A stretch of DNA of 64,000 nt. It comes from Oscillospiraceae bacterium. Its GTDB lineage: Bacteria > Bacillota > Clostridia > Oscillospirales > Ruminococcaceae. How positions within the stretch are numbered: the first letter of the stretch is position 1; each line of letters begins with the position of its first letter. Location: NCBI GenBank assembly GCA_031280965.1, contig JAITFZ010000030.1:1-64000 (forward strand), written 5' to 3'. The position numbers were made by a program, and so were the translations under genes. Shown here one piece after another: positions 43,859 to 59,928 of this stretch. The notes under the pieces were generated by a model that did not search any database, had not been told where the DNA came from, and was given only the letters and a program-made list of their open reading frames with translations.

Positions 43859-43882
43859 TTTTTCACCTTGCCATTAAATATT

Positions 43883-45181
43883 TTAATTGTTAAAAAGCTC
43901 TTTGATTGCCTCTATATACTCTGATGTTTCCCACATAGTATATGGAGTTATCATAATATTTATTTTAGAAAGTTTAGATTTCAATCGCTTAGCTTGAGAT
44001 TTTGTGTATTCTGTTATTTTATTAACAGAATAATAATCAAGCGATAAGATAACGAAAATACCTCCTGTTTCTTGAACGAAATCAACGAACCCATCAATAT
44101 CTTCTTCGTTATCATTTACGCCGGGAACGAAAGTGTACTTCAAGGCTATAAATCCTATTTTTGCATTTGAATATCGCATAAGATTACTTTTTACCTTTTC
44201 AAATGCATTTACGCCTTTAACTCTCTCAAATGTTTCTTTCGTTCCGGAGTCGATACTTACAGTAAAAAATATACGTTTTCGATTCATCATTTCAAATATA
44301 TGCTCGTTAAAAATTGAACCATTAGTGTTTATACAAAACTCATATCCGTCAAACTCATCAACAAATTTTGACAACTTAGGATGTAAAAATGGTTCACCGG
44401 CTGTTGATAACACAATACTATGTGCTTCATTTATACTATCAGCTTTACGAAACTCTGATAAAATCTCTGTTAGAGGGCGTAGCCCCTCGCTGTTTCCGGT
44501 ATCATTTACTGTGCTATATTTTGATTTTTTGTTTGAATTAATCAAAGTGCAATAGGAACATTTAAAATTACATTTAGATTTACAAAAAAAATTTATACAC
44601 CAAGGAGAAGGTTCAACAGCATAGTGTTTTTCACAAATTTGCAAACAATTCTCACAGTCTGTTCCTTGTTCGTTGCTTACTTCAATTTTTTTCAGCAATT
44701 CGTTTTTAGTTTTAACAACATTTTCAATATCCAACTTTTCTTCACTGCTGTAGATACGCGGACCTTGTTTTCGCCAACAAAAACGTATGGCATCATCTCT
44801 ATCATAAATCACACATTTTTGCAAAAAATTGCAACTTCTCACTTTCTTTACAGGAACATAATTGATAATCCTCTCCGGAGAAACTTTAAGTTTATCTGTA
44901 AGATATGCAAAAATCTCGTATCTATAATCAAGAGTTGTAACATATATTTCAGAATTTTCTATTTTTACAGCTTCGGAAGGTGACATTACAAAAAGCCCTT
45001 CCAATCCTTTGAAAGCTATACCTTGTTTTTTTATATCACCATCACAAACCGCAGTCGGCAATAGATTAAAGCGGACTTTTAACTCTTTTATATGAAGAAA
45101 CATTCCGCTGCCCAACGCATAAAATATAATCGGGATTCCTGCATTTATCTTATCCGCAATAATTTTAACATAATCTTTCAT
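43883..45181 (-). CDS. Radical SAM protein with an N-terminal Rossmann-like domain
   Basis: The 432-residue protein has an N-terminal Rossmann-like segment (about 1-110; YALGSGMFLHIKEL, then PTAVCDGDIKKQG) and a radical SAM core with CKSKCNFKCSYC (CxxxCxxC ligands CNFKCSYC) at about 196-207, and LSTAGEPFLHPKL. Two more Cys pairs lie before the core (DCENCLQIC). It probably makes a modification on a glycan precursor or peptide. Its start overlaps the upstream glycosyltransferase stop by 17 bases. Confidence 0.82.
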   Translation of the reverse strand: MKDYVKIIADKINAGIPIIFYALGSGMFLHIKELKVRFNLLPTAVCDGDIKKQGIAFKGLEGLFVMSPSEAVKIENSEIYVTTLDYRYEIFAYLTDKLKVSPERIINYVPVKKVRSCNFLQKCVIYDRDDAIRFCWRKQGPRIYSSEEKLDIENVVKTKNELLKKIEVSNEQGTDCENCLQICEKHYAVEPSPWCINFFCKSKCNFKCSYCTLINSNKKSKYSTVNDTGNSEGLRPLTEILSEFRKADSINEAHSIVLSTAGEPFLHPKLSKFVDEFDGYEFCINTNGSIFNEHIFEMMNRKRIFFTVSIDSGTKETFERVKGVNAFEKVKSNLMRYSNAKIGFIALKYTFVPGVNDNEEDIDGFVDFVQETGGIFVILSLDYYSVNKITEYTKSQAKRLKSKLSKINIMITPYTMWETSEYIEAIKELFNN

Positions 45182-46271
45182 TCTTTAATCCTTTCAATAA
45201 ATTAACAATTTCATTAACTTCTTTGGTTTGCCCGAATTCAAGAAGTATTTTTTTGATGTTTTCTTCAAGAAATTTATTTCGTGCCGCAAGATTTTTAAAT
45301 TCGGGGTCGAATATACCGCTAAACAATAACGGCGTCTCATCTCTTGAAAAAATCCACTTAATCAACTCAAGCCTTTCTTCCGGCGATACATCTTTTCGCT
45401 CAAAAATAAATCTCATACTGTCATCAATAGTGGAAAGATATATCGCATAAAGATAATCGCAGTTAAATTTACTGACCTTTCCGTAAGATTCAAGATATCT
45501 GCGGGTTGTAAGATATAATTCGTAATACTCAGATACTTTCTCTTTTAGAGAAACCCGGCTTGAAATTTGTTGCTGTGACTGATAATATTTATAAACAGAT
45601 TTGCCTAAAACCCCTATTCGTCTTGCTTTCCTAAAAAGGAATAAATTATATATTGAATCCGAACTATATTTATATTCATTATAATTTAATACTGATTTCG
45701 AGCAAAGATTATATTCATCAAGAATATAATCTGATAATAAAATTTGTGAGTTTCTATATAATTTCCCCCATGTAAAAGGTGTAAAGGGGCGATATTTGAT
45801 AAAATCGGATTGAAATTGTTTGCCGCTTACTGTGAACGTATCTTCAGGTATTCGGGTTTTAATAATACTACCGGTTTGTTCATCTATCACATCGTATCCG
45901 CAAGTAACTATATCGAGTTTGTTTTCGTCCATGAATCTGCTCGACACTTCAAAGAAATCATGAACATATTCGTCATCGGCATCAATCGTGAAGTGATATT
46001 TCGCACTTGATTCTGTTCTTAATGCTTTTGATAAATTTATAGCGTTAACTATATTATTAACAGGAAGGTAAAGCATTTTTACGCGCTTATCTTTTTTATT
46101 GTATTTTTTGATAATTTCATCTGTTTTATCAGTGCTTCCATTGTTTAATATCCAAAAAGTAAAGTCACTCCGTGTTTGGTTTAATACACTTTTAATAGCT
46201 CTTGCGATTGTTTTTTCACCATTCCAGGCACACATAAAAACAAGAGCCCGATTTTGTCTGTGATAGTTCAT
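45165..46271 (-). CDS. Glycosyltransferase family 2
   Basis: The 368-residue protein has a GT-A domain with WNGEKTIARAIKSVLNQT, ILNNGSTDKTDEI and DADDEYVHDF, and a shorter helical C-terminus. It resembles the enzyme at 42341-43858 and is probably a paralogue. It probably transfers a sugar in assembling the same surface glycan. The start has an AGGGGG site. Confidence 0.9.
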   Translation of the reverse strand: MNYHRQNRALVFMCAWNGEKTIARAIKSVLNQTRSDFTFWILNNGSTDKTDEIIKKYNKKDKRVKMLYLPVNNIVNAINLSKALRTESSAKYHFTIDADDEYVHDFFEVSSRFMDENKLDIVTCGYDVIDEQTGSIIKTRIPEDTFTVSGKQFQSDFIKYRPFTPFTWGKLYRNSQILLSDYILDEYNLCSKSVLNYNEYKYSSDSIYNLFLFRKARRIGVLGKSVYKYYQSQQQISSRVSLKEKVSEYYELYLTTRRYLESYGKVSKFNCDYLYAIYLSTIDDSMRFIFERKDVSPEERLELIKWIFSRDETPLLFSGIFDPEFKNLAARNKFLEENIKKILLEFGQTKEVNEIVNLLKGLKNERLC

Positions 46272-46289
46272 GTGTAAAGACCCCCTACA

Positions 46290-47366
46290 TTATAAAGATT
46301 TAAATTCCACTTCATTTTTCTTACAATAATCTATAAAATTATCATATGTTTCAGCAAAATATTCATTAAATTCAGTATAATCTGCGAGTTCATAATAATA
46401 TTCAATCGGTTTAGAGGTGTCAAAATCTTTCTCGTGAATATATGGAAATTTATAATAATTGCAGAGTTCAAGCATACGTGTATCATGCACTATAAATAAA
46501 GCGGGTACACCTGCTAAAATGGCTGCGACATTTCCATGGAATTTATTACCTATAGAAAAATCACAATATTCAATTCCATTTATCCAATCATCTACATTGA
46601 AAAATAATCTTCCGGTGTCGCATAAAAAATTTGAATATGGTTTATTTGTTATTAAAAAACGAGAAAAGTCTTGAATTGTAAAATTAATATTTATCTCTTT
46701 TCGTTTTTGCCAAATATTTATTGCGTAACCAAACAGTCTGTCTTGCTTAGTATTAAGATTTATATTTATACTTGTTAATCTATCAGTAGTTTTAAAAATT
46801 TTGAGTTCTCTGTCTAAGTTATAGTATAATGACGGACAACCAATAACTCTGCTTTTTATTCCATTTTTCTTTAAAATTTCAGTAGATAATTCACCGCGTG
46901 TTCCAATTTCACCGAGTTCTGTCATGCGTTTAAGCATTTTATGAAAATCGTCAGGAAAAAAATCATTCTCCCAATCCTCGTGCCTGGCACCAAATGATAT
47001 TGGTACAATTCTTATTCCCAAATCTAAAATTCGATTAAAACTCGGTGTTGCGCGAACACCAAAATTAGGTTGTACATTGCCATAACCTTTATTTCCCACA
47101 ACATAGTGTAAATTGTTTGTTATAACGCTTTTATAAAGCGTTGGATTATTGCTGTCGAAATGATTTCCTCTAATATGGTCAGCATCAAATATTTTATAGT
47201 AAGTATCCGTCATCAAAAATTCCCCGAAATTTCTGTAAAAATTCGGATAATTAAAAATGTAATCACCACATTCATATAATGGGCTATTGTATAATTCATT
47301 GAATGTTAATGGTTTCTGTTTTTTATAATCACCATTATGAAATAAAGCAGTTTTTTTCGTACACAT
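46290..47366 (-). CDS. Polysaccharide pyruvyltransferase-family protein
   Basis: The 358-residue protein has the PS_pyruv_trans (GT-B-like) pattern: NFYRNFGEFLMTD at the start, IVPISFGARHEDWEND in the middle, and the signature FSIGNKFHGNVAAILAGVPALFIVHDTRMLELC near the C-terminus (given here as separate motifs FSIGNKFHGN and AGVPALFIVHD). Members add pyruvate ketals or act as sugar transferases. The ATG 47366 has AAAGGTGAT 7 bases before it; a GTG at 47378 lies in frame. AT-rich relative to its neighbours. Confidence 0.82.
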   Translation of the reverse strand: MCTKKTALFHNGDYKKQKPLTFNELYNSPLYECGDYIFNYPNFYRNFGEFLMTDTYYKIFDADHIRGNHFDSNNPTLYKSVITNNLHYVVGNKGYGNVQPNFGVRATPSFNRILDLGIRIVPISFGARHEDWENDFFPDDFHKMLKRMTELGEIGTRGELSTEILKKNGIKSRVIGCPSLYYNLDRELKIFKTTDRLTSININLNTKQDRLFGYAINIWQKRKEININFTIQDFSRFLITNKPYSNFLCDTGRLFFNVDDWINGIEYCDFSIGNKFHGNVAAILAGVPALFIVHDTRMLELCNYYKFPYIHEKDFDTSKPIEYYYELADYTEFNEYFAETYDNFIDYCKKNEVEFKSL

Positions 47367-47398
47367 TAATAATATCACCTTTATATATTATGAATATT

Positions 47399-48520
47399 TT
47401 ATGGAATTGCAAACAAAACAGTTTCAACTAATGTGTCGGTATATTGTCTTAAATAAAACTTATAACCCGGATTAACCGACCATAAAAAATCAGGTATTTC
47501 AAAAATGTCTTCTTCTTTGTGATAAACACAAATAGCTAATTTAGGTTTTTGTTCGCGAATTATTGTTTCCGCGCCTTTTAACGCAGATAACTCCGCACCC
47601 TCAATATCCATTTTTATAAATGTAACAGTTTCTCCTGCAAGCTCACTATCCAATGTTGTAAGATTTACTGAAAATACCCCCTCCGAATCACACAATTTTG
47701 AGGCAACTCCTTGACTCATAAACATAGCCTCACCAATGCTGTCAGATACAGCCGCTTCTATAAGTGTTAAATTATTAATATCCTTTAAATTTTGCTTTGA
47801 AATTTGATAACAATTCGGGTCGGGTTCAAACGCAAAAATCTTCTTATACTCACCTGACCAAGAAATAAAATCTTTTATAGTTTCGCCATCATACACACCG
47901 CAATCAACAAATATTTCATCCTTTGAATGAGGTAATTCTTTTAATGAGAAATATGTTGGTTTCCCGCTTAATTCCCATAAACGAGAAGCCGTCGGAGAAA
48001 ATGTAGAGAACCAGAACGGAAACTCAAGCTTAAAACATAAGTAATTTTTTATATTGTTTTTCTCTACAAAAGGCGTGATTTTTTCGGGATTTGCAACTGC
48101 AATTATTAGAGTTGCATCTGAAAACTGCTGAATATATTGCTCTATGTTTAATATAGGCTTTTCAAAGTAGGTACCGGTCTTAAATGAATCCACAAAAGCC
48201 ATAACCATTGAATTTTTATATAAAGATTCAATAATCGACTTGCAAAAAAAGCCAGTGATGCCCGCTCCGTATATTACAACTTTTGGGGGAACATCATGGA
48301 TTAAACCGTTTTTATCAGTAAGACTGAAAATTTGATGTTTTTTAAAAGACTCTTGACCGAACTCTGTCTGAAAAAAAGAACTTAACTTTCCCCCATGTAA
48401 GTTTTCGATAAAATCAAGTTGTTTCGTACACAAAAAGCGCAGACAATCCAAACTTAATACGTCACCGCGTTCTTTGAAGTGAACACCCAGCTTATAAATA
48501 ATCTCATCCCTTGATTTCAT
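47399..48520 (-). CDS. FkbM-family methyltransferase with an N-terminal Rossmann-like domain
   Basis: The 373-residue protein has an N-terminal segment (about 1-180) with VVIYGAGITGFFCKSI and AFVDSFKTGTYFEKPIL, then an FkbM methyltransferase domain with VDCGVYDGETIKDF, FAFEPDPNCYQI, and FIKMDIEGAELSALKGA. It probably O-methylates a sugar. It is very similar throughout to the gene at 51915-53033, so the two come from a duplication. GGAGGAAG precedes the ATG. Confidence 0.88.
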   Translation of the reverse strand: MKSRDEIIYKLGVHFKERGDVLSLDCLRFLCTKQLDFIENLHGGKLSSFFQTEFGQESFKKHQIFSLTDKNGLIHDVPPKVVIYGAGITGFFCKSIIESLYKNSMVMAFVDSFKTGTYFEKPILNIEQYIQQFSDATLIIAVANPEKITPFVEKNNIKNYLCFKLEFPFWFSTFSPTASRLWELSGKPTYFSLKELPHSKDEIFVDCGVYDGETIKDFISWSGEYKKIFAFEPDPNCYQISKQNLKDINNLTLIEAAVSDSIGEAMFMSQGVASKLCDSEGVFSVNLTTLDSELAGETVTFIKMDIEGAELSALKGAETIIREQKPKLAICVYHKEEDIFEIPDFLWSVNPGYKFYLRQYTDTLVETVLFAIP

Positions 48521-48532
48521 TTTTCTTCCTCC

Positions 48533-50032
48533 TCAAAATACCCACGGAACATCCGTATCACGGTGCAATTTTATTATTTTTATTCCTGTTTCTTCATGAT
48601 GCTTTAAACCCTCATATATTGCCTTATCATGCCTATATGTCGGTATTATAATTACATCAGGTTTCAATTTGTTTATATCCTCCGGCGAATGTATGGGCAA
48701 CCCTCCCATTTTCTCACCCCACATTTTAGGGTCGCTGTTAAATTGCAACCATTCAAATTCAGGTTCACCCCAATAACGATTATATAAATCTACAACCATA
48801 TTCGCGAATCCGCCGTTAGGATAAAGACCGACTTTTTTGTATCCCTTATCCGCAAGCAATTCTCCCACCCGCTCCTTACGGGATTCAAGCGTGTAGCAAA
48901 CCTTTCCCGCTCTGTCATACATATCGTCAATCGCATCTATTATGTTTAATTTTTGAGTACAAATTTTCTCACATTTTCCGCAACGATTGCAAGGATTGTT
49001 CGGTGAATCGGGAAACCATTCGGCAGTACCGAGATGAGAGTGTGAATAGAAAAGACTGATGTTTCTTAGCAATTCAGGGGCGATTCGGTTATATCTTTCC
49101 GTCGGAGCAAATAGCAAGGTGTTTCTTTTATTCATAAGTTCTGCTACAGGAATACCTTTGGGGCAATTCTCGCAGTAATTACAATTAACACAGAAATTGT
49201 CTATTCCCTTGATTTCTTTCATAACCCGTACTGTTCGCTCATCGTTGGATTCTTTGGCTTTTTCCGTAAATGCGATTAAATTTTCGTTTAATTCGCTTTC
49301 GTTACTTAACCCCGATAAGAGAATTTTCACAGCCGGATGTGCTTTGGCAAAACGTAGAGCTGCTATTACAGTATTTTCATTTTCGCCGGCGGCAAATGAG
49401 AAAAAGTTTAAATTTTGAGCGATTATTCCGCCCCCTAAAGGGTTCATAACCGCCACGTCAACGTTATGCTCCAATGCCGCATCAAGAACAGGAGTGATTT
49501 GCATAGCATTCAAAAGTGAATAAGAAATTGTAACTCCCTTAAACGCATCGCTTTTTATTATTTTAATCGAATCTTCCACGGAAGCGTGCAAAGAACAGCA
49601 GATATGTTCAATCAACCCCTCATTTTTAAGTTTAAGCGCGCCGTCATAAACGCCGTCTTTACGCATTATATCCTGAAAAGCCTCATAGGTCGGAATAGTC
49701 CAGCATACAAAAAATTTAGCTTTCTCTAAACCCAAAGATGTAATCTGCATTTCCGCGCGTTTTCTTGCTTCGTCGGCAGTCTTGTCCATATCGTGCATAA
49801 CTTTTACTGTTACATCGGCAGTCTTTTTGGTTCCGGAAAATGCTAATTTCAACGCAGCATTAGACATACCTGCAGAATATGCATAGGCTGTATCAATATA
49901 GTTAACACCTGCCTCAAGGGCTTTAATAGTTAATTGCGCGGATTTCTCAACACCTTCAGAGTCATCAGGACCGATTATAGGAAATCGTCCGGTGCCTAAA
50001 CCCATAGGGAAGTAATTGTCAAATACGCCCAT
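48533..50032 (-). CDS. Aldo/keto reductase with ferredoxin domain and C-terminal Rossmann-like extension
   Basis: The 499-residue protein has an aldo/keto reductase barrel (YIDTAYAYSAGMS, KVMHDMDKT), a cysteine-rich part with CVNCNYCENCPKGI and CNRCGKCEKICTQKL (two 4Fe-4S sites), and a unique C-terminal 100 residues (KKVGLYPNGGFANMVVDL, then KPDVIIIPTYRHDKA). It resembles the reductase at 36821-37975 but with this extra domain. ATG 50032 follows AAAGGTG; GTG 50041 is an alternative. It may reduce a sugar keto group. Confidence 0.82.
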   Translation of the reverse strand: MGVFDNYFPMGLGTGRFPIIGPDDSEGVEKSAQLTIKALEAGVNYIDTAYAYSAGMSNAALKLAFSGTKKTADVTVKVMHDMDKTADEARKRAEMQITSLGLEKAKFFVCWTIPTYEAFQDIMRKDGVYDGALKLKNEGLIEHICCSLHASVEDSIKIIKSDAFKGVTISYSLLNAMQITPVLDAALEHNVDVAVMNPLGGGIIAQNLNFFSFAAGENENTVIAALRFAKAHPAVKILLSGLSNESELNENLIAFTEKAKESNDERTVRVMKEIKGIDNFCVNCNYCENCPKGIPVAELMNKRNTLLFAPTERYNRIAPELLRNISLFYSHSHLGTAEWFPDSPNNPCNRCGKCEKICTQKLNIIDAIDDMYDRAGKVCYTLESRKERVGELLADKGYKKVGLYPNGGFANMVVDLYNRYWGEPEFEWLQFNSDPKMWGEKMGGLPIHSPEDINKLKPDVIIIPTYRHDKAIYEGLKHHEETGIKIIKLHRDTDVPWVF

Positions 50033-50164
50033 TTCATTCACCTTTCACTTTTAACTGACAAATATAAGAAGATAGATTTTTATAAGTTTCTACATTAAAA
50101 AACTCCGTTGTTAATCTATAATTTAATTTGTTATTGTAACAGAATTCATAGAAACCACCTTATA

Positions 50165-51001
50165 TTACATCTGCTCTGCCGCAGGGAATCTTGGCAAAAC
50201 AGCCATGTATTTTTGCTTGCAATAACGGCATGACTGCCGCGCATAATCATAAAATTCGTTTAAAATTTCTCGCTTCTCTTCCCTTGAAATTAAATTATCC
50301 CGTAAATTTACAAAATCACGTTCTTTCGGCAAAAACAGTCCCATCTCTAACATAAAACATGAGTTTGAACATCTGTGCAGTTTTCCGTCATAAACGTGCA
50401 TGTTTTTAATTCTGTTCTGCGGGCAATTTTTTGAGTTGACCTCTAATACATCACCCGGTTCTTTAAGGTCACGGGGAATTGTATTATCAATCCAACCATT
50501 ATAATACTGGTCTTTGCCATGATATTTTTTCAAAGAATAACCTATGTTATTTTCACTGAGAAATTTAATAAACATTTCACGTTCATAAGAATTATCTCCG
50601 TAATTGCTGATGAAAACAAACAATTTCTCGCCATATGCAAGCATTGCTGCTTGCTCATCGGCGTTCGGCGCGATAGTCGCGTTAGTTTCTATCACAAGTT
50701 TATTAAAGCGGTTGTTATACTTTTCTACATAGCGGATTAATTTCGCGAAATCGCTGTAAATATATACCTCTCCGCCGACGAACTGCAACCACTCCACATG
50801 GTCAAATAAATCAAAGCAAGCATCAATGTCGCGGCAGACATCTTCAAAGGGAATATCACGGCGTTCCACACCACCGCCTGTAAACAGAAAATCACCGCAG
50901 AGCCTGCAGTTGAGAGTGCAGTTTGTAGTAGGTACTACCGCTAAACGACGGGCTATAAGCGGTTTTTCTTCTATTGCGAGGATAGTTTTATTATTACTCA
51001 T
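50165..51001 (-). CDS. Radical SAM protein
   Basis: The 278-residue protein has the radical SAM motif CTLNCRLC (C27, C31 and C34 or close to that) after VVPTTN, then FVGGEVYIYSDF. A C-terminal Cys-rich part with NSKNCPQNR, RCSNSCFM and SCRYCKQK is SPASM-like and may bind extra clusters. The substrate is unknown; the gene context suggests a glycan or a carrier. AGGGGAT precedes the ATG. It lacks the N-terminal Rossmann-like segment of its operon relative. Confidence 0.82.
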   Translation of the reverse strand: MSNNKTILAIEEKPLIARRLAVVPTTNCTLNCRLCGDFLFTGGGVERRDIPFEDVCRDIDACFDLFDHVEWLQFVGGEVYIYSDFAKLIRYVEKYNNRFNKLVIETNATIAPNADEQAAMLAYGEKLFVFISNYGDNSYEREMFIKFLSENNIGYSLKKYHGKDQYYNGWIDNTIPRDLKEPGDVLEVNSKNCPQNRIKNMHVYDGKLHRCSNSCFMLEMGLFLPKERDFVNLRDNLISREEKREILNEFYDYARQSCRYCKQKYMAVLPRFPAAEQM

Positions 51002-51012
51002 TGTAATATCCC

Positions 51013-51882
51013 CTAATTCTTTATAATAGCAATACTCTTATAATCTCCAATCGGTATTGCTGCGATTCCATATTTTTTTACAAATTCATCCACTGCGACC
51101 GAAACCCCATGAAGCATAGAGTAATAATCATGAATAAGAATTACCCCACCAAAAGACATACGGGGATAAAATATTTCCAATCCATCTTTTATCGGTTGAT
51201 ATAAATCTGTATCAAGATTTACAAAAATAAATTTTTCTTTATTCAAATCAAACGTATCCGGAAAAAAGCCTTGTTTAATGATTGCATTTTGCGGATATGG
51301 TAATACTTCCATAACCTTATCAACAGACGTTTCAGTGAAATTCAAATATCCCTTTTCTAAGTGATTATCAACTGTAAATGAGTAGTCATTTTCTTGACGT
51401 TCTACAATTAAATCCCGTTTATCAAAACCCGAAAAAGTATCGAATAAATACAGCTTTTTATCTGAAAATACCCTGTTTATCTCTCGAGCAAATGCCCCTC
51501 TGTAAACTCCCACTTCGGCACAATCGCCATCTAATTTATGATAGTAACAATACTCCGCAAAATCTTCCAAAAAACGAATACGCGATGCAATGTGCAGAGG
51601 TTCATGATGCGATTCGCTCCATACTCTGTTAATTTTTTCTTTCGGAATTCTAAAATCATATAAAAGCTGTGAATATATGTCTTCAAGTCCGCTCGCGCTT
51701 GCTATATAAATTTTATCAAAATCTGTAGTCTTTAATACCGTTGGCGACAAAAGCGGTAACGGTAAATCTGTGTTATTTTCAACTTTATTATCCACAAAAA
51801 ATAAAATTTCAAAACATTGTTTATACTTTTCATATAAGTATAAACCTAAATCCCCTACGCCGAATATTATTATTTTTTTCAT
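51013..51882 (-). CDS. TylF/MycF-type methyltransferase with an N-terminal Rossmann-like domain
   Basis: The 289-residue protein has a 75-residue N-terminal segment (IIIFGVGDLGLYLYEKY and ILFFVDNKVEN) joined to a TylF domain: FLEDFAEYCYYHKLDGDCAEVGVYRG, LYLFDTFSGFDKRD, FIFVNLDTDLYQP and GGVILIHDYYS. TylF methylates macrolide sugars, so the substrate here is likely a sugar hydroxyl. GGAGG precedes the ATG. Confidence 0.88.
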   Translation of the reverse strand: MKKIIIFGVGDLGLYLYEKYKQCFEILFFVDNKVENNTDLPLPLLSPTVLKTTDFDKIYIASASGLEDIYSQLLYDFRIPKEKINRVWSESHHEPLHIASRIRFLEDFAEYCYYHKLDGDCAEVGVYRGAFAREINRVFSDKKLYLFDTFSGFDKRDLIVERQENDYSFTVDNHLEKGYLNFTETSVDKVMEVLPYPQNAIIKQGFFPDTFDLNKEKFIFVNLDTDLYQPIKDGLEIFYPRMSFGGVILIHDYYSMLHGVSVAVDEFVKKYGIAAIPIGDYKSIAIIKN

Positions 51883-51914
51883 ATATACACCTCCACCTAA
51901 TCATATAAGAACAC

Positions 51915-53033
51915 TCAAATATTTACTGCATAAAGAACAGTTTCGCACCAAGAATCGGAATAATGTCGCAAGTAGAATTTATAATTAGGATTAATTGACC
52001 ATATATAATTTGGTATTTGCCATAAATCTTCAAGTTCATGATAAACACATATCGCCAGTTTGGGCTTACATCTGCGGATAATTTCTTCTCCTCCTTTCAA
52101 CGCTGACAATTCCGCACCCTCTATATCCATTTTTATAAATGAAACAGTCTCATCCGCAAACTCACTATCTAAAGTAGTAAGTTCTGTCTCGTGTGTTCCA
52201 TGAATTTCATTTAACACAGAAGAAGCTCCGGGGTTGTCTTTCGAGAGATTTTGAATCATTAACATTCCTTTACCTATTTTATCAGTAATAGCAGCTTTTT
52301 TGATGTATAATTTTTTTACATCGCATAAATTTTGTTTTGAAGCATCAAAACAAATGGGATCAGGTTCAAACGCAAAAATCTTTTTATAACCTTTTTCACC
52401 GGCCCATAAAATAAAATCCTTAATATTTTGTCCATCATATGTGCCGCAATCAACAAAAACCTCTTCGTCTGAATGATTTAATTCTTTGAGCGAAAAATAT
52501 TGTGGTTTTCCACTTACGTCTAATAAACGTTTTGCTTCTGTAAATTTTACATATGTCCAAAAAGCTGTTGTGAGTTCTGAATGAAAATAATCATCCACGC
52601 CGGCTTCTCTAAGTGAATATTCAATTTTTTGAGGATTTGCGACAGAAACAACAAGCGGGACATCAGCGTAGTCTTCTTTTCTTTTATATTCATGTATTGT
52701 TATTATCGGTTTATTATAATAATTTCCGGTTTTATTTGAATCAATGAAAGCCACAACTTCAGATTTATATACCGTTTCAATCAATTGTTTTATTAAAAAG
52801 CCATACACACCCGCACCATATAAAATAACTTTATTCGGAACTTCTTTTTCGCAACCATTTTTATCAATTATTCGGAGCGGCGAACGTTCAAATGAACGAG
52901 GTTTAAATTTATTAATTTCCTCTACCATCGTAATGCCGCGAGATAGTTGAAAGCGCAAACAATCCAAGGATATTTGGTCTCCTCGTTCGTTAAAATGAAC
53001 CGCTAACTTTGTGATTATTTCTTGTGGTTTCAT
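51915..53033 (-). CDS. FkbM-family methyltransferase (paralogue)
   Basis: The 372-residue protein is similar along its length to the one at 47399-48520. The N-terminal part has the same LAVHFNERGDQISLDCLRF pattern and VILYGAGVYGFLIKQL; the FkbM domain has VDCGTYDGQNIKDF, FAFEPDPICFD and FIKMDIEGAELSALKGG. Its GAGGAGAG ribosome site lies in the last codons of the preceding glycosyltransferase gene, so translation is coupled. Confidence 0.88.
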   Translation of the reverse strand: MKPQEIITKLAVHFNERGDQISLDCLRFQLSRGITMVEEINKFKPRSFERSPLRIIDKNGCEKEVPNKVILYGAGVYGFLIKQLIETVYKSEVVAFIDSNKTGNYYNKPIITIHEYKRKEDYADVPLVVSVANPQKIEYSLREAGVDDYFHSELTTAFWTYVKFTEAKRLLDVSGKPQYFSLKELNHSDEEVFVDCGTYDGQNIKDFILWAGEKGYKKIFAFEPDPICFDASKQNLCDVKKLYIKKAAITDKIGKGMLMIQNLSKDNPGASSVLNEIHGTHETELTTLDSEFADETVSFIKMDIEGAELSALKGGEEIIRRCKPKLAICVYHELEDLWQIPNYIWSINPNYKFYLRHYSDSWCETVLYAVNI

Positions 53034-53036
53034 TTA

Positions 53037-53960
53037 TTATAATCTCTCCTCTTCTATGTATTTTCCCACCCACTCCCTCTCAAACTCCAGAATAAACTCA
53101 CTTTGAGTAAATTCATCGCGCTTCTCCCGTAACTCGCTTATCATAGCCGTCAATTGCCCCTCGCAGTCCTCAATCCCAAGCCGATTAATTTTCTCAACCA
53201 TGCTAATCATGAAACTCCACTCAAAGTATTGCCACGTATGCACGTTGCTCGGAAATAACCCTGACAACCACTCTGTCCGCTCGCGGTATGTTTTTAAATA
53301 TTCATCAAGCGTTTTCGCATCAAGCAAATTATGATTGGTTGTCCATGCAGAATTATTAGTTTCATGCCTGTAAAACGAATATTTGGGAAGTCCGTGATAG
53401 GCAACACAGTTCGCAAACGCAAGCAATTTGTGCATTTGAGAAATATCGTCATATACTTCATCTTCGGGAAAACGGATTTTTACCGCTAATTCTTTTTTAA
53501 ACATCTTTGTCGGAAAAGCTACATTATAATATTTGCGCCAAAACAAAGTAATTAACGCATCTTCTGCGGTCATAACGCGCTTTTCATCGTAGTTTTTATC
53601 TTCCGCGCCGCAAATCGAAACATCGGCATTGCTTTCAGTTGCAAGATTATACAAAAATTCAAGAAAATCAGGCTCACACCAGTCATCATCGTCAATGAAC
53701 GCTATGTAATCGCCTTGCACCGCGTCAAGTCCGGTATTCCGTCCGCTCCCGATATTTCCGCGCTCACGATGAATTACGCGAACTCTGCTGTCTTTTTCGG
53801 CGTATTCATCTGCAATTTTTCCGCTTCTGTCACTTGAGCCGTTGTTTACAATGATATATTCGAAATCCGTGAATGTCTGCGTCAAGATGCTTTCAATCGC
53901 ACGGCTTACAAGATTTTCACGATTATAAGTCAGCATTATGACCGAAATCTTTGGATTCAT
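53037..53960 (-). CDS. Glycosyltransferase family 2
   Basis: The 307-residue protein is a compact GT-A enzyme: VIMLTYNRENLVSRAIESILTQT, IVNNGSSDRSG, GSGRNTGLDAVQGDYIAFIDDDDW. It resembles bacterial surface-glycan glycosyltransferases. I chose ATG 53960 (AGGTGTGG upstream) over GTG 53981. Its start overlaps the truncated Rpn frame by 38 bases, which puts it under the same leader. Confidence 0.9.
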   Translation of the reverse strand: MNPKISVIMLTYNRENLVSRAIESILTQTFTDFEYIIVNNGSSDRSGKIADEYAEKDSRVRVIHRERGNIGSGRNTGLDAVQGDYIAFIDDDDWCEPDFLEFLYNLATESNADVSICGAEDKNYDEKRVMTAEDALITLFWRKYYNVAFPTKMFKKELAVKIRFPEDEVYDDISQMHKLLAFANCVAYHGLPKYSFYRHETNNSAWTTNHNLLDAKTLDEYLKTYRERTEWLSGLFPSNVHTWQYFEWSFMISMVEKINRLGIEDCEGQLTAMISELREKRDEFTQSEFILEFEREWVGKYIEEERL

Positions 53961-54165
53961 TAATTTTTCCACACCTTCCACTTAGCTTTAACACACGCCC
54001 ATTCTTCTTCAAACGCATTATAGTTTTAGATAATTTGAAATCCTCAATACTCTCAAAGGTAATTCTAAGAAGCCGTGCTACAAATCGTTTTAGCAAACGC
54101 GGATATTTTACGAATACCATTTTACAGAGTATATCTTCTTTTAAGGTATGTTTGAGTTTAGTCAT
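53923..54165 (-). pseudogene. Truncated Rpn-family nuclease/transposase (N-terminal remnant)
   Basis: An 80-codon frame begins MTKLKHTLKEDILCKMVFVK, followed by YPRLLKRFVARLLRITFESIEDFKL. This is the N-terminal pattern of the Rpn (PD-(D/E)XK) recombination-promoting nuclease/transposase family, normally about 300 residues. The rest of the family sequence, with the catalytic residues, is missing and the frame runs into the glycosyltransferase gene. The promoter and an AAAGGAG site are intact, so the remnant now serves as the leader of the glycan operon. Confidence 0.65.
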
Positions 54166-55736: not shown

Positions 55737-55889
55737 AATTTACCTCTTATAGTTACTGCGTAGTTACATGTTTATCCGGAAGCGTTGTGAAAAAATCGCT
55801 TTCATCTTGTAATAACTCACTTTCAAAAATACCTCAATTAAAATAATTATTCAAATTATGAACTATTGAGGGTTTTCTTTTGTCAAAAT

Positions 55890-55914
55890 ATGTTATATTA
55901 TAGTTATATAACAT
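55890..55914 (+). promoter_or_regulatory. Candidate operator: 9-bp inverted repeat before the XRE gene
   Basis: ATGTTATAT (55890-55898), 7-base spacer TATAGTT, ATATAACAT (55906-55914): a perfect inverted repeat 17 bases before the XRE-regulator ATG. A TTGTCA (55880-55885) lies just upstream as a possible -35 box. This fits autoregulation by the XRE protein. Confidence 0.55.
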
Positions 55915-55931
55915 CATGACGAACCGACAAA

Positions 55932-56171
55932 ATGAGTGAACAAATGAGAAGTTTTAATAAACCGTTTTACATTGCTATAGGCAAAAGAGTAAAACAGCAA
56001 CGGGTCAGTAAAGGCTTTTCGAGGGAGAAATTAGCTCAAGAAGGAGATATTTCCGATAAGTTTCTGTATGACATCGAGGTGGGAAACAAGGGAATGTCCG
56101 CCGATACTTTATTCCGCATAAGTATCGCGCTTGATGTTTCGGCAGATTGGCTACTTAGAGGGGAGGTATAA
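55932..56171 (+). CDS. XRE-family transcriptional regulator
   Basis: The 79-residue protein is a single helix-turn-helix domain: IGKRVKQQRVSKGFSREKLA, then GDISDKFLYDIEVGNKGMS with the recognition helix, then DTLFRISIALDVSADWLL. It is a small phage-type repressor-like regulator with no ligand-binding domain. It heads the seven-gene set running to 59928. There is no strong ribosome site; ATG 55944 is a possible second start. Confidence 0.88.
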   Translation: MSEQMRSFNKPFYIAIGKRVKQQRVSKGFSREKLAQEGDISDKFLYDIEVGNKGMSADTLFRISIALDVSADWLLRGEV

Positions 56172-56177
56172 ATATAA

Positions 56178-56786
56178 ATGTGGGATATGGGATTTCCTGG
56201 CGTTATAACGGAAAAACGGGAACTCAGAGCGCCTAAATGGCATAAAGATTATGATATGTCATGTGATGATGCATTGGAAGATATTATTAAAGAATTTGAT
56301 ACTCGCGAGAGTTGGAAATCCGGTTTTTCAAATATTTTATGGGGAAATAAGTTTAAAACAAATAATATAGCACTCGACATACATAGTAAAATAATTATTA
56401 AGGAAAAATATGGGAAAGTTGAATATGCATTTAATTCTACTACCGGTAAAAATGAGATAACGTATAACGGCGCATGGGATATCGGACATAAACAAGGTTT
56501 AGAATGGTGGAGAATTAAAGTAGCTGTAAAAAAATACATAGAAAAACATTCTGTATTTGATACAAACATGATGCAAACGACCGTTTCGTCAAAATACATC
56601 AATACTGCTAAAGAAGCGATTAGGACTATCCACAATACAGTTGAATTCTTTGAACCTGAAAATTGCAAGGATAACAGAGACCGAAAAGGTGAACACCCTT
56701 ACATAACACCTCCGGTAGGACATTTTATGCATATTTATGAGCGTAATGTACAAACACATTTGGACGTGGTTTTCCCTTGCAGTTAA
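56178..56786 (+). CDS. Predicted HNH/EndoVII (GH-E-like) nuclease-domain protein
   Basis: The 202-residue protein has a C-terminal half with ITYNGAWDIGHKQGLEWWRIK followed by IHNTVEFFEPENCKDNRDRKGEH, here noted as GHKQGLEWW and EPENCKDNR. The Gly-His, Glu and Asn spacing resembles GH-E toxin nucleases of the HNH/Endonuclease VII group. The N-terminal half has no secretion signal. It is AT-rich compared with the DUF2589 genes after it. The first codon lies 6 bases after the XRE stop and has GGGGAGG upstream, so the two are coupled. The nuclease call is a motif-level inference. Confidence 0.5.
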   Translation: MWDMGFPGVITEKRELRAPKWHKDYDMSCDDALEDIIKEFDTRESWKSGFSNILWGNKFKTNNIALDIHSKIIIKEKYGKVEYAFNSTTGKNEITYNGAWDIGHKQGLEWWRIKVAVKKYIEKHSVFDTNMMQTTVSSKYINTAKEAIRTIHNTVEFFEPENCKDNRDRKGEHPYITPPVGHFMHIYERNVQTHLDVVFPCS

Positions 56787-56813
56787 TCATGGTGCAAAAA
56801 TAAAGAGGTAATC

Positions 56814-57368
56814 ATGAAATTTTGGAGAAAAAAAGACTCAGGAAAGAAAAACGAGGGCGGTATTACGCTTGCGGACATTATCCGCGGGCTTCAATATTGC
56901 GTCAATTCCAGCCGGCAAATGGCGATGCGTCAGCATATTGTGGAGTTTGCGGAGTTTATAGATGAAGACAACAAGCCTCATTCCAGAATAATAAAAATCA
57001 ATGAACAAGCCGCGATGGAAGTTCCTCTTATTTGCATGATTAATCATAATTCGCTCGCTCTTGATGAGATGGACGTTAATATGAAACTCGTTGTCAGGAA
57101 TATGGATTTGAAAATTCCCCAAGAAAATCCGGAACCTTCCGAAGCGAACGAATTAGATGAAATTATCGCACCCGAATATTTATCGCGCACTTCGTTTTCT
57201 GTTGACCTTGACAGCGCGAAGGTTGACCGCAGAAACACCCGCCTGAAACTCAATCTCAAGTTCAAGTCGGGCGCACCGCCCGAAGCAGTAAGCAGGGTAA
57301 TCGAGAAATTAAACGGACAGCTTATGGCATACTCTCTTAAAAAACCGGACGAGGAGTCCGAAGAATAA
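56814..57368 (+). CDS. DUF2589-like protein (paralogue 1)
   Basis: The 184-residue protein begins with a basic segment (MKFWRKKDSGKK) and then GGITLADIIRGLQYCVNSSRQMAMRQHIVEFAEF, an amphipathic helix, followed by beta-rich sequence with DEMDVNMKLVVRNM. The C-terminus RLKLNLKFKSGAPPEAVSRVIEKLNG parallels the C-terminus of the next gene (FNVSARKQAPPEAFMRIIDAI), so the two are divergent paralogues. It ends with an acidic tail. The function of DUF2589 proteins is unknown. AGAGGT precedes the ATG. Confidence 0.6.
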   Translation: MKFWRKKDSGKKNEGGITLADIIRGLQYCVNSSRQMAMRQHIVEFAEFIDEDNKPHSRIIKINEQAAMEVPLICMINHNSLALDEMDVNMKLVVRNMDLKIPQENPEPSEANELDEIIAPEYLSRTSFSVDLDSAKVDRRNTRLKLNLKFKSGAPPEAVSRVIEKLNGQLMAYSLKKPDEESEE

Positions 57369-57392
57369 TAAAATCATAAAGGAGAATTTAAC

Positions 57393-58049
57393 ATGAATCA
57401 CGATGTGGTAAGCGGCATAGTCAATAATTTACCGATTGAAAAAATGGTTGCGGCTCCGCTTATGGCTGCAATTAAGGCGCAAAGCGAAATGAGCATGCAA
57501 ATGGCGAGGTTTATCGACAATGTCGGCGTTGATACAGACGGCAATATCCGAATGGTTACATTCAAGTATCAGGAAAACGTAACCACTCCCGCCGTGTATA
57601 AAGAAGACGGTTCATTAGAAACCCCGGCAGAAACTAAATTGAGCGACCGCTACATACAGGCGCCTTTCCTCGCTTTGACGGGGATTCCGAACCTTGCTGT
57701 AGAGCATGTGAACATTTCATTTGAGATTGAGGTGAACACTGCCGAGGACACCAAGTCGAAAACTGATACAAGTCTTTCAAACGAAACAAGCGCGGAATAT
57801 AAGTCGTGGTGGTCTCCCGTAAAAGCTTCTACGAAATTCACGGGTTCTGTCACGCATTCAAACGAGCAAACGCGGCACACCGATACTCGTGCGAAGTATA
57901 CATTCAATGTCAGCGCGAGAAAGCAGGCACCGCCGGAGGCGTTCATGCGTATAATCGACGCGATTACTAACGGCGTTGCAAATCCGACGGCAGCAGAACT
58001 CACGGATAATCTCAGCACAGACGGACACGGAGTGAAAAAAGCAAGCTAA
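57393..58049 (+). CDS. DUF2589 domain protein (paralogue 2)
   Basis: The 218-residue protein matches DUF2589: MVAAPLMAAIKAQSEMSMQMARFIDNVGV at the start (an amphipathic helix), then LPFLALTGIPNLAVEHVNISFEIEV-type strands and a C-terminal strand-helix with QAPPEAFMRIIDA. A lysine/Ser/Trp-rich central segment (KSWWSPVKASTKFTG) is unusual. GGAG precedes the ATG 24 bases after the previous stop. A stable hairpin follows. Confidence 0.7.
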   Translation: MNHDVVSGIVNNLPIEKMVAAPLMAAIKAQSEMSMQMARFIDNVGVDTDGNIRMVTFKYQENVTTPAVYKEDGSLETPAETKLSDRYIQAPFLALTGIPNLAVEHVNISFEIEVNTAEDTKSKTDTSLSNETSAEYKSWWSPVKASTKFTGSVTHSNEQTRHTDTRAKYTFNVSARKQAPPEAFMRIIDAITNGVANPTAAELTDNLSTDGHGVKKAS

Positions 58050-58064
58050 TTTGTAAATATTGCT

Positions 58065-58094
58065 TCCCTGCGGAAAAACGAGTTTCCGCAGGGA
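58065..58094 (+). other. 12-bp perfect hairpin between the DUF2589 and HNH genes
   Basis: TCCCTGCGGAAA (58065-58076), loop AACGAG, TTTCCGCAGGGA (58083-58094). No T-run follows, so it may be an mRNA-stability or processing element that sets expression of the genes on either side, rather than a terminator. Confidence 0.55.
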
Positions 58095-58121
58095 GGTAAT
58101 TGACGGAAAGGACACACGTTT

Positions 58122-58943
58122 ATGCTTACGCCGGAACAAAAAGAATCTATTAATCGATTTTTAAATGACATTGGAAACAGACCTATGGCAAGAAGCTTTA
58201 ATCTTGCAATAAGTAATTATAGGATAGTCAAATTAAGTAAAATAGTCAAGACTAAAAAGATATGTAGACAAATAGGTATGATTGAGTACTTGCAAAATAT
58301 GGTAGTCATGAATATTTGTACGAGTATTGCCGAATTTGAGTCTTCTGTCGATGATGCATTTAATGGAATAATAGAAAAATATAACATAGCAGAAGATAAT
58401 CCGATAATGCTTATGGCAAATCATTTTGAGAGAGATTTTCGCCAAAAATTGAAAAAAGCTATAAATCATTTTGAGAGAGATTTTCGCCAAAAGTTGGAAA
58501 AAGTTATAAACCCTTTAAGGATGGAAGAATTTTTAATAAGACAAGGTTTTACGCAAGCTCAATTAGATATGGATGAGGATTTCGATGACGGAAGCGGTGA
58601 TTATCATGTAGAAGGAAGAAGACAAGCATATCCGTTTAGTTTCAGCACTCAAACAGAAAATTTTTTTATAAACGTTATTAATTGTCAAATGCCAAATTGT
58701 TTAATCCCCGAAATCCCATTAAAACGTAATGCAAATAAAAATGACGATACTTCTCTTAACTTAGACCATGAACCGGACTTATCAATAAGGTTCAACTTCG
58801 GAGAATATCGCCTCACTGTGGACGAACGCAGAATGTCGTACAATGATGTAACCAGATTACGTGCTGTACATCGAATTTGCAATTTAAGAAAAGGGCGTGT
58901 GCCTTATAACCGCAATTTATTAATCAAAATGAACCGAAACTAA
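58122..58943 (+). CDS. Predicted HNH-like nuclease protein with internal duplication
   Basis: The 273-residue protein has a C-terminal part with LNLDHEPDLSIRF and later RLRAVHRICNLRKGR, the DH...HxxCNxxKG form of HNH nucleases; the segment NCQMPNC may replace the usual Cys pair. Residues 100-129 contain two tandem copies of NHFERDFRQKLxKxI, encoded by a 45-base direct repeat (58419-58508). It has no export signal. It is AT-rich. The nuclease call is an inference; metal-ligand completeness should be checked by structure prediction. Confidence 0.5.
   Translation: MLTPEQKESINRFLNDIGNRPMARSFNLAISNYRIVKLSKIVKTKKICRQIGMIEYLQNMVVMNICTSIAEFESSVDDAFNGIIEKYNIAEDNPIMLMANHFERDFRQKLKKAINHFERDFRQKLEKVINPLRMEEFLIRQGFTQAQLDMDEDFDDGSGDYHVEGRRQAYPFSFSTQTENFFINVINCQMPNCLIPEIPLKRNANKNDDTSLNLDHEPDLSIRFNFGEYRLTVDERRMSYNDVTRLRAVHRICNLRKGRVPYNRNLLIKMNRN
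58419..58508 (+). repeat. Two tandem 45-bp repeats inside the HNH-like gene
   Basis: Unit 1 is 58419-58463, unit 2 is 58464-58508, differing at a few bases. Each codes for NHFERDFRQKLxKxI. In frame, so it lengthens a helix by 15 residues and looks recent. Confidence 0.85.
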
Positions 58944-58984
58944 CAACTTATAAAAAATCAAATAAATTACAGGAGGAAAAAATC

Positions 58985-59263
58985 ATGGCAATCAGCGTAA
59001 AAAACACCGGCTCACAACCTTGTGAGGTATCAGTCAACCAATGGGGAGCAGGAGAACAGACAGGCTTTTTCACATTAAAAGGCGGCGATAAAGGCTCATG
59101 GAACCGCACCGACAAGCGGGGATTTGTGATGAGCATTAAACGCGGCAATTTGACTTATCCGTTTTTCGTTACGGCGAATTCCGAAGTCGATATTAACGAA
59201 AGAAGAATACTGATTGATAATCAAGAAGCCCATCCGGTTTATGAACCGATTCCCGTAACTTAG
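58985..59263 (+). CDS. Small beta-rich protein, unknown function
   Basis: The 92-residue protein has an alternating pattern that suggests a beta sandwich: AISVKNTGSQPCEVSVNQWGAG, then GFFTLKGGDKGSWNRTDKRG, then FVMSIKRGNLTYPFFVTANSEVDI. It has no signal peptide. It resembles carbohydrate- or lipid-binding small beta folds in general character, but I do not recognise a family. AGGAGG precedes the ATG. It is part of the XRE-controlled set. Confidence 0.6.
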   Translation: MAISVKNTGSQPCEVSVNQWGAGEQTGFFTLKGGDKGSWNRTDKRGFVMSIKRGNLTYPFFVTANSEVDINERRILIDNQEAHPVYEPIPVT

Positions 59264-59316
59264 AGTCTGTTTAACATAATATTTACAAGTTAAAATTACA
59301 TGAGGAGAATTAACCT

Positions 59317-59928
59317 ATGTCAACTTTCCTAACCCCCGACAAAACAATCACAATAAACGGCGTAACCGTCAATCAAAAAATTGTTCCTGCGGCTTTCAAA
59401 GCACCGAAGGATGTATCCTCATGGGTCAAAAAAGGACAGAACATCAAACCCAATCGCAAACTAAACGACGGAACAGGCAAACCGCGCGGAGTTTGCATCC
59501 ACAATACAGAAGCAATAAAGATTCCGGCGGGAACTACAATGGCGGAGCAATATATCCGCTCAACTTATAACGGTAACATGGTGGGAGTAATTGTTACTTA
59601 TTACGTTGACGATAAATGCGCGTGGCAGTTGTTGGAAGATAACGAGCAGGGCTGGCATGCCGCAGACGGAATTTCCCGTAAAGCGACCGCTCGTCCCGTT
59701 AAAACCATCGGCGGAAACCTTGATTGTATTTCTTTTGAAATCATCGGGGACTGCGCCAAAGCGAATGATAACGCCGCACGGATTGCAGGATATTTGCTGA
59801 AAAAATATACCCTTGCTGTTGATGATGTTTACGGACATATATTTTTCAGCGGTAAAAATTGTCCGATGTATATTCTAAAAAATAACGGATGGGATAAATT
59901 TAAGAATTTAATTCGTGGGTATATTTGA
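59317..59928 (+). CDS. N-acetylmuramoyl-L-alanine amidase (Amidase_2)
   Basis: The 203-residue protein is a T7-lysozyme-like zinc amidase. The ligands are His in VCIHNTE, His in GWHAADG (or the C-terminal H in YGHIFF), and Cys in GKNCPMYIL. The catalytic middle has CISFEIIGD. It cleaves the bond between muramic acid and L-alanine. It lacks a signal peptide and cell-wall-binding repeats, as in phage endolysins that need a holin. No holin gene is next to it. It is the last gene of the XRE-controlled set; GAGGAG precedes the ATG. Confidence 0.85.
   Translation: MSTFLTPDKTITINGVTVNQKIVPAAFKAPKDVSSWVKKGQNIKPNRKLNDGTGKPRGVCIHNTEAIKIPAGTTMAEQYIRSTYNGNMVGVIVTYYVDDKCAWQLLEDNEQGWHAADGISRKATARPVKTIGGNLDCISFEIIGDCAKANDNAARIAGYLLKKYTLAVDDVYGHIFFSGKNCPMYILKNNGWDKFKNLIRGYI

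Follow-up and report, generated by a model that had tools for sequence, protein, structure and literature searches.

The window analysed here, a stretch of 64,000 nucleotides from an Oscillospiraceae bacterium (assembly GCA_031280965.1, contig JAITFZ010000030.1), contains a compact operon in which a tandem pair of DUF2589 proteins (PF11655) is combined with an XRE-type regulator, two nuclease-like proteins, a small beta-rich protein and a phage-type amidase. We put the probability that this operon is an undescribed module for antagonism between bacteria at about 0.5. In related loci, DUF2589 pairs co-occur with wall hydrolases and toxin-type enzymes, this cargo turns over between close relatives, and a recombinase and an inverted repeat are laid out in front of several of the operons. 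An antagonistic role fits because the cargo comprises WHH, HNH, GH-E-like, GIY-YIG-like and EEP nucleases, an ADP-ribosyltransferase, TcdA_TcdB-family glycosyltransferases and, in one locus, a gene of the SUKH-1 immunity family. An earlier note on this DNA had left the choice between antagonism and abortive defence; the types of cargo favour the former, and the latter drew no support from PADLOC (E 0.01, seven proteins), which matched the XRE gene alone and no other known defence family.

How might such a module act? We envision a scenario whereby the soluble DUF2589-A/B pair is the conserved part, supplemented in many other bacteria by a third protein of ~90 amino acids (aa), and is surrounded by a wall hydrolase and by exchangeable enzymes that would attack nucleic acid, protein or cell wall. 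A local switch, formed by the XRE regulator here and by a recombinase with a probable invertible promoter in several relatives, would hold the operon, which only a minority of cells would express. The DUF2589 pair would then bind or assemble with the effectors in the manner of a carrier, the hydrolase would open the wall of the producer or of the target, and the effector would leave and reach neighbouring cells, or would be admitted through the opened wall. A broader and distinctly more tentative proposal is that DUF2589-A, DUF2589-B and the third protein form the heart of a widespread but so far undescribed device for effector release or delivery, which is phase-switched and travels with any available wall hydrolase. 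One conserved assembly might then carry enzymes of unrelated kinds across the cell boundary, outward or inward, with no known secretion system involved.

The two DUF2589 proteins of the window are paralogues, as had been proposed, and their profiles are homologous (hhalign 98.5%). An AlphaFold2 (AF2) model of DUF2589-B, built from 47 sequences, consists of a helix at residues 15-45, a mostly beta middle part and a helix at residues 182-195; its mean predicted local distance difference test score (pLDDT) is 67.8, with high confidence at residues 41-90 and values under 50 at 116-163. Three solved structures matched by sequence at E 0.3-4.9 were rejected as chance. The earlier suggestion that the pair might be a membrane part is not supported for the two window proteins, in which hydropathy revealed no membrane segment. 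Across 65 loci, some DUF2589 frame passed the threshold of our crude hydropathy script once in 12 (three frames did so in L087), and a DUF2589 gene or an operon neighbour matched in 31. PF11655 is sporadic among relatives, being present in 7/60 genomes of the genus, 6/247 of the family, 4/197 of the order and 11/391 of the class (all counts include the own genome). In a scan of contigs from genomes, 51 DUF2589 loci were found, in hosts as diverse as Vibrio, Sphingomonas, Lachnospiraceae, Nostoc and Bacteroidales, and five plasmid records also contain the family.

What these loci share was surveyed in a set of 73, all of them found through DUF2589 itself. The set omits L010 (same record as L061), L012 (a Streptomyces plasmid with two DUF2589 annotations), the G267 and G340 fragments (class matches in frames with stops) and the later-found L122. 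A tandem pair, with members within 700 base pairs (bp), occurs in 63 of the 73 loci, with A preceding B in 51; the third protein is encoded in 41 of 65 loci and has no Pfam match in the two cases tested. In a phmmer map, a wall hydrolase lies within 2.6 kb in 34/73 loci and farther out in 5, and a nuclease- or toxin-type enzyme lies near in 14 and farther out in 1, the outer stretch being longer than the near one (560,754 versus 342,072 bases, window not counted). The L114 hydrolase, at 2783 bp, was counted as farther yet belongs to the same kind of operon. The hydrolases of the 34 loci bear ten labels: Amidase_2 (9), CHAP (8), MltF (5), GH108, Glucosaminidase, GH25, GH19 and Phage_lysozyme (2 each), and M23 and Pesticin (1 each). 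By reading, the GH108 proteins of L053 and L061 look more like N-acetylmuramidase.

A Pfam scan of 150 adjacent genes gave a similar picture, with Amidase_2 (7), CHAP (6), Phage_lysozyme (5), Glucosaminidase, GH108 and GH19 (2 each) among the hydrolases, and with TcdA_TcdB (4), DUF6765 (5), DUF4231 (5) and Phage_integrase (9) among the other families, where several counts may fall in one protein. From the 159 adjacent genes of 65 loci, 149 were scanned; ten, mostly apparent spurious frames, were omitted by eye (L040:9200-9553, L045:10925-11212, L054:10494-11594, L056:173-448, L057:5822-6772, L079:5989-7104, L088:1410-2414, L009:7168-7692, L009:11921-14203 and L015:6018-6443). The WHH gene L013:1678-2154, missed by the rule, was added, which favours the antagonism reading by one protein. 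The control consisted of 148 genes more than 4 kb away in the same loci, and its 25 commonest families include neither a wall hydrolase nor TcdA_TcdB; because the summary covers these 25 families only, the control is not shown to be hydrolase-free. In addition, 149 control genes had been drawn from 263, and the one dropped, L011:388-1917, overlaps an annotated TcdA/TcdB catalytic glycosyltransferase domain protein and would score as toxin-type.

The turnover of cargo is best seen within the genus, where the core stays in place while its companions change from locus to locus. In L102, DUF2589-A and the amidase are 87% and 85% identical to those of the window and the GH-E-like protein is 30% identical; B is cut short there, and the HNH-like and 92-aa genes are not among the listed frames. 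The window's HNH-like protein is found in none of the other genus genomes (60 searched). In L100, B is 63% identical, A has next to it an ADPrib_exo_Tox gene (5.4e-18) of opposite orientation, and a gene for a GH25 lysozyme (3e-28) lies ~0.8 kb away. The remaining genus loci carry an M23 protein with a below-cut-off SH3 match (L099, 7.9e-21), a WHH protein (L013, 3.5e-7), a GH25-like gene 2.5 kb away (L014) and a 187-aa protein without family assignment (L101). Exchange at a single position is seen in one operon type of the wider family, in which CHAP-SH3 proteins (L112, 3.6e-12; L113, 4.8e-11; by likeness L122) and GH25 proteins (L114, 2.2e-34; by likeness L014) take the same place. Elsewhere we found EEP (5.9e-13), GIY-YIG (7.9e-4, below cut-off), a weak deaminase (0.003), Peptidase_C70 with a wall-binding domain (3.1e-7) and a Pesticin-like protein (2.9e-5, just below cut-off), and in Vibrio neptunius (L041) a SUKH-1 family gene (1.6e-19) lies directly 3' of DUF2589-B.

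Both nucleases proposed for the window itself turn out to be candidates, and so does their action as toxins. The GH-E-like protein scores below the Pfam cut-off (22.3 of 25 bits), yet the motifs W(D/E)IGHK-GLE and FEPE..NRD..GE are retained between it and the L102 homologue, which is encoded upstream of DUF2589-A and itself reaches 13.7 bits. For the 273-aa protein, Pfam gave no nuclease and just one chance-level match, to an unrelated family, but the protein is 31% identical over 104 aa (2e-11) to a 142-aa Lachnospiraceae protein (L062:6979-7404) that is encoded directly upstream of DUF2589-A and matches Pfam HNH at 4.8e-7. The two have DH and CN..KG blocks in common. HNH catalysis in the window is less sure because the middle asparagine of the motif, by reading, is not clearly kept. 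Relatives of the GH-E-like and HNH-like proteins were absent from plasmid records.

Several observations weigh against antagonism. The earlier note had asked whether DUF2589 genes elsewhere sit beside nucleases and amidases, a lack of such partners being its refuting result: they do in a large part of the family, but 32/73 loci, among them almost every multi-copy cluster of Bacteroidota, Nostoc and SAR324, have neither type of cargo within 2.6 kb. The phmmer seeds were taken from the loci themselves, so that the survey was not blind; the MltF proteins, the GH108 proteins of L053 and L061 and the GH25 protein of L014 were named by reading; and the counts are not independent, six CHAP loci being related Clostridia and all five MltF loci Vibrio or Aliivibrio, with MltF on the other strand in four of these five. 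Peptidase_C70 was scored as toxin-type and bears wall-binding domains, through which L046 was probably matched, the deaminase and GIY-YIG matches fall below cut-off, and the GH25 protein of L100 has a signal-like N-terminus and may be independent. In the window, the third protein so common elsewhere is missing, no immunity gene is recognised and no holin or export system is present in the locus; the window's genome gave 0 matches to contractile-sheath and YukC/EssB proteins. Finally, short DUF2589-related genes of Archaeoglobus fulgidus (AF0414-AF0417) are reported to be up-regulated on lactate, a response that does not suggest warfare.

Conceivably, DUF2589 is instead a general structural family of the cell envelope or cell interior that needs wall remodelling, with nucleases and toxins as occasional passengers. 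This alternative, improbable in our view but the strongest of those considered, stays alive because toxin-type genes are fewer than hydrolases and many of the loci lack both, as exemplified by the multi-copy clusters without recognised cargo; the lactate response is also in its favour. It sits less easily with the differing toxin-type enzymes beside a similar core in same-genus loci and with the sporadic occurrence of the family in genus and family genomes.

How are the operons controlled? In eight of the 73 loci (L014, L060, L072, L077, L089, L112, L113 and L114), a tyrosine recombinase gene lies within 600 bp upstream of DUF2589, and 18 of the 73 have in their upstream 1.6 kb an inverted repeat of 16-mers with at most 2 mismatches. 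The left arm bears TTTGTCAA on its inner side in 8 of these 18 (L060, L062, L077, L089, L111, L112, L113 and L114; tallied on the first two repeats per locus) and not in the other 10. Six of the eight recombinase loci belong to this group; by reading, the site of L014 is alike but has more mismatches, and L072 has the right arm only. Base shuffles of five such regions produced such repeats in 0/200 cases each. The repeats enclose ~100-160 bp between recombinase and DUF2589 operon. Read on the reverse strand, TTTGTCAA forms a TTGACA box 17 bases from TATTAT (11/12, L112) or TATTTT (10/12, L077), a match to consensus only; because the motif reads on this strand, the promoter-like site points away from the operon, and all switch copies that were read showed the off state. 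Of 396 family genomes, 5 have the right-arm site, always before a DUF2589 operon, one of which (L122) was newly found thereby, and the backward control gave 0. Recombinase, repeat and promoter-like site thus arranged probably represent an invertible promoter, that is, a phase switch. Our literature search on invertible promoters found nothing, and no such promoter was found when looked for before the window's own operon.

Control in the window may rest on the XRE regulator. The inverted repeat that the earlier note had assigned to it is present, 17 bases 5' of the XRE start, and plausibly serves as an operator, although the fold of positions 55880-55935 is in only moderate excess (z -2.75; 4/200 shuffles equally good). 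A gene run that joins two nuclease-like genes with one for an endolysin-type amidase under XRE control might also indicate self-directed lysis or abortive infection, in which phage attack frees the operon from the repressor, DNA is destroyed by the nucleases and the amidase brings about lysis. The switchable expression in relatives would suit a costly or lethal product. We nevertheless regard such a role as unlikely and weaker than antagonism: no sensor for abortive infection was seen, none of the seven proteins has a holin-like segment that would let the amidase reach the wall from inside, and the ADP-ribosyltransferase, TcdA_TcdB-family and SUKH neighbours point to outside targets, to which may be added that PADLOC recognised the regulator alone.

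The amidase invites a further alternative. Among the phage matches listed, its best relatives are endolysins of Faecalibacterium and Ruminococcus phages (38-44% identity), and the alignment with the L102 amidase reads as retaining H62, H174 and C182, which we take to be the pattern expected of zinc ligands in this amidase family; a zinc amidase had been proposed at this position. Weaker still than abortive defence, and improbable, is thus the notion that the operon is a domesticated phage lysis cassette or remnant with DUF2589 and nucleases as chance neighbours. The amidase is 44% identical to the Faecalibacterium phage endolysin, but no relative of DUF2589-B was found in 50,697 phage records or, by pattern scan, in viral contigs, neither DUF2589 protein has a PHROG below E=0.1, and the pairing of DUF2589 with hydrolases recurs with ten hydrolase types. 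A phage origin of DUF2589 was accordingly rejected. Relatives of the GH-E-like and 92-aa proteins were likewise absent from viral contigs, in a search that left the phage collection aside for these two and for the HNH-like protein. The nucleases might also be the toxins of a maintenance unit that resembles toxin-antitoxin systems, with the part of the antitoxin falling to XRE or the 92-aa protein. Such a unit would suit an XRE gene 6 bases from a small nuclease-like gene and a 92-aa gene directly after the HNH-like gene, but is very improbable, since it leaves DUF2589 and amidase unexplained and since L102 has the GH-E-like, A and amidase genes without the HNH-like and 92-aa genes among its listed frames.

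The small beta-rich protein of the earlier note was found as predicted and possibly has an immunity or binding role. It has no match in Pfam, PHROG or PADLOC, one marginal match (E=0.009) outside its own genome among 197 genomes of the order, and two weak matches in plasmid records; its single-sequence AF2 model is weak, with scores of 38.6-55.9 for the other four models.

Features of the DUF2589 operon of the window and repeat elements of related loci
Feature	Position	Strand	Basis
Inverted repeat ATGTTATAT-N7-ATATAACAT, candidate operator	55890..55914		by reading
XRE-type regulator, 79 aa	55932..56171	+	Pfam HTH_19 1.2e-10, HTH_3 2.1e-9
GH-E-like HNH/EndoVII-type nuclease, 202 aa, candidate toxin	56178..56786	+	PF14410 E=2e-4
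DUF2589-A, 184 aa	56814..57368	+	PF11655 3.7e-11
DUF2589-B, 218 aa	57393..58049	+	PF11655 8.1e-29
18-bp RNA hairpin, no U tract	58059..58100	+	between DUF2589-B and HNH-like gene
HNH-like nuclease, 273 aa, candidate toxin	58122..58943	+	via L062 homologue
92-aa beta-rich protein	58985..59263	+	AF2 from single sequence: all-beta, mean pLDDT 69.8 (weak model)
Phage-type N-acetylmuramoyl-L-alanine amidase, 203 aa	59317..59928	+	Amidase_2 2.4e-11; PHROG endolysin 5e-35
Repeat elements of relatives (also L077, L122)	L112:6522-6704, L113:6989-7139, L114:1499-1691, L060:3489-3677, L089:7187-7336

The seven frames, all on the + strand at 55932-59928, lie where the earlier note had placed them; its description of the genes as mostly coupled holds only loosely, as the gaps measure 6-72 bases and no genes overlap. 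The regulator, both DUF2589 proteins and the amidase are above Pfam cut-off; weak matches to ASFV_360, Desmo_N and Gryzun among the window proteins were set aside as chance. PHROGs gave no head, tail or integrase match for the seven proteins, and with the flanking frames judged by reading, no prophage structural, packaging or integrase genes were seen alongside. The hydropathy script found a membrane segment in 0/7, in line with the earlier claim that phage parts and a holin are absent. The region around the hairpin (58045-58115) folds at -32.8 kcal/mol (z -6.9; 0/200 shuffles as good), and the hairpin may be a stability or attenuation element; it could determine how much core mRNA there is relative to cargo mRNA. 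By reading, the HNH-like gene contains a near-exact 45-base tandem repeat at 58419-58508 (NHFERDFRQKL...). On the right, mnmE- and secA-like genes (names by reading) follow on the opposite strand; on the left lie a methyltransferase gene (Pfam) and a stretch of low guanine-cytosine content (42341-54000, ~0.31-0.39) with glycan-related genes, named by reading as glycosyltransferase-like, radical-SAM-like and FkbM-like.

Some other loci have features of their own. On a Vibrio plasmid (L011), a DUF2589 pair, third protein and MltF-like gene lie near an HlyD/ABC exporter and a TcdA_TcdB-family gene. DUF4231 proteins with two transmembrane (TM) segments, which are candidates for holin-like proteins, and DUF6765 proteins recur around the pair in L049, L050, L052, L058 and L059, with CHAP adjoining. 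One operon type encodes a protein of 324-374 aa with a kept ALPEFFW motif (L112:9084-10055, L113:9912-10919, L114:4485-5477 and L122:5766-6887; no Pfam match in L112 and L114) and a partner of ~185 aa. An eCIS_core protein (1.6e-12; L014:7066-8943, - strand) is encoded near one DUF2589 locus, with a contractile sheath ~29 kb away on the contig (G067:C24:33965-34483). Shared secretion machinery for DUF2589 was rejected, as a sheath is present in 5/12 and YukC in 0/12 DUF2589 genomes, and neither in that of the window.

DUF2589 is a cross-phylum family that is nearly absent from the literature searched: a text search of 5.39 million papers (preprints not covered) found it named solely for the A. 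fulgidus genes, with PF11655 and IPR024510 unmentioned and no description of such a module. Its neighbourhoods now suggest a function, as a switch-controlled core to which wall hydrolases and exchangeable effectors are joined. If the antagonism reading is true, the corollaries would be a new class of weapons against other bacteria, borne by gut Bacillota and many Pseudomonadota, a supply of new nuclease effectors, and an explanation for the recurrence of the DUF2589 pair beside endolysin-like genes outside prophages.

From an abstract perspective, the module may work like a polymorphic toxin system joined to an endolysin-type release. With polymorphic toxin systems (compare PMC3482391), it shares effector types (GH-E, WHH, HNH and ADP-ribosyltransferase), a SUKH immunity-family gene in one locus, and a conserved part that is kept while effectors are exchanged beside it. 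The known toxin-superfamily domains are present in related loci, the window contributing a GH-E match below cut-off and an HNH assignment via a homologue, and an immunity-family neighbour is seen in L041 (SUKH-1), with none recognised in the window. Here, however, each effector is a small protein in its own right (79-273 aa for the proteins of the window) and not the C-terminal domain of a long carrier, a DUF2589 pair forms the conserved part, and its commonest recognised partner is a wall hydrolase. With type 10 secretion and holin/endolysin release (compare PMC9527704, PMC10847048 and PMC6200909), it has in common a phage-type wall hydrolase beside effector-like genes and, perhaps, expression in a subset of cells; it differs in that the window's seven proteins contain no holin-like segment, two-TM DUF4231 proteins stand near some DUF2589 loci only (5/150 members) and DUF2589 is what stays constant. 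We assign the module to neither kind because the defining features, a C-terminal toxin domain on a carrier and a holin, respectively, are missing.

Colicin-type nuclease bacteriocins are similar in their small nuclease effectors, and the L013 WHH protein weakly matches Colicin-DNase (0.011); instead of receptor or translocation domains, none of which was seen here, the module has a DUF2589 pair and an amidase. The recombinase-switched promoters of gut bacteria resemble the probable switch of the relatives in their tyrosine recombinase, their inverted repeat around ~100-160 bp and the promoter inside, except that here the arrangement stands before DUF2589 operons of relatives and not at the operon of the window.

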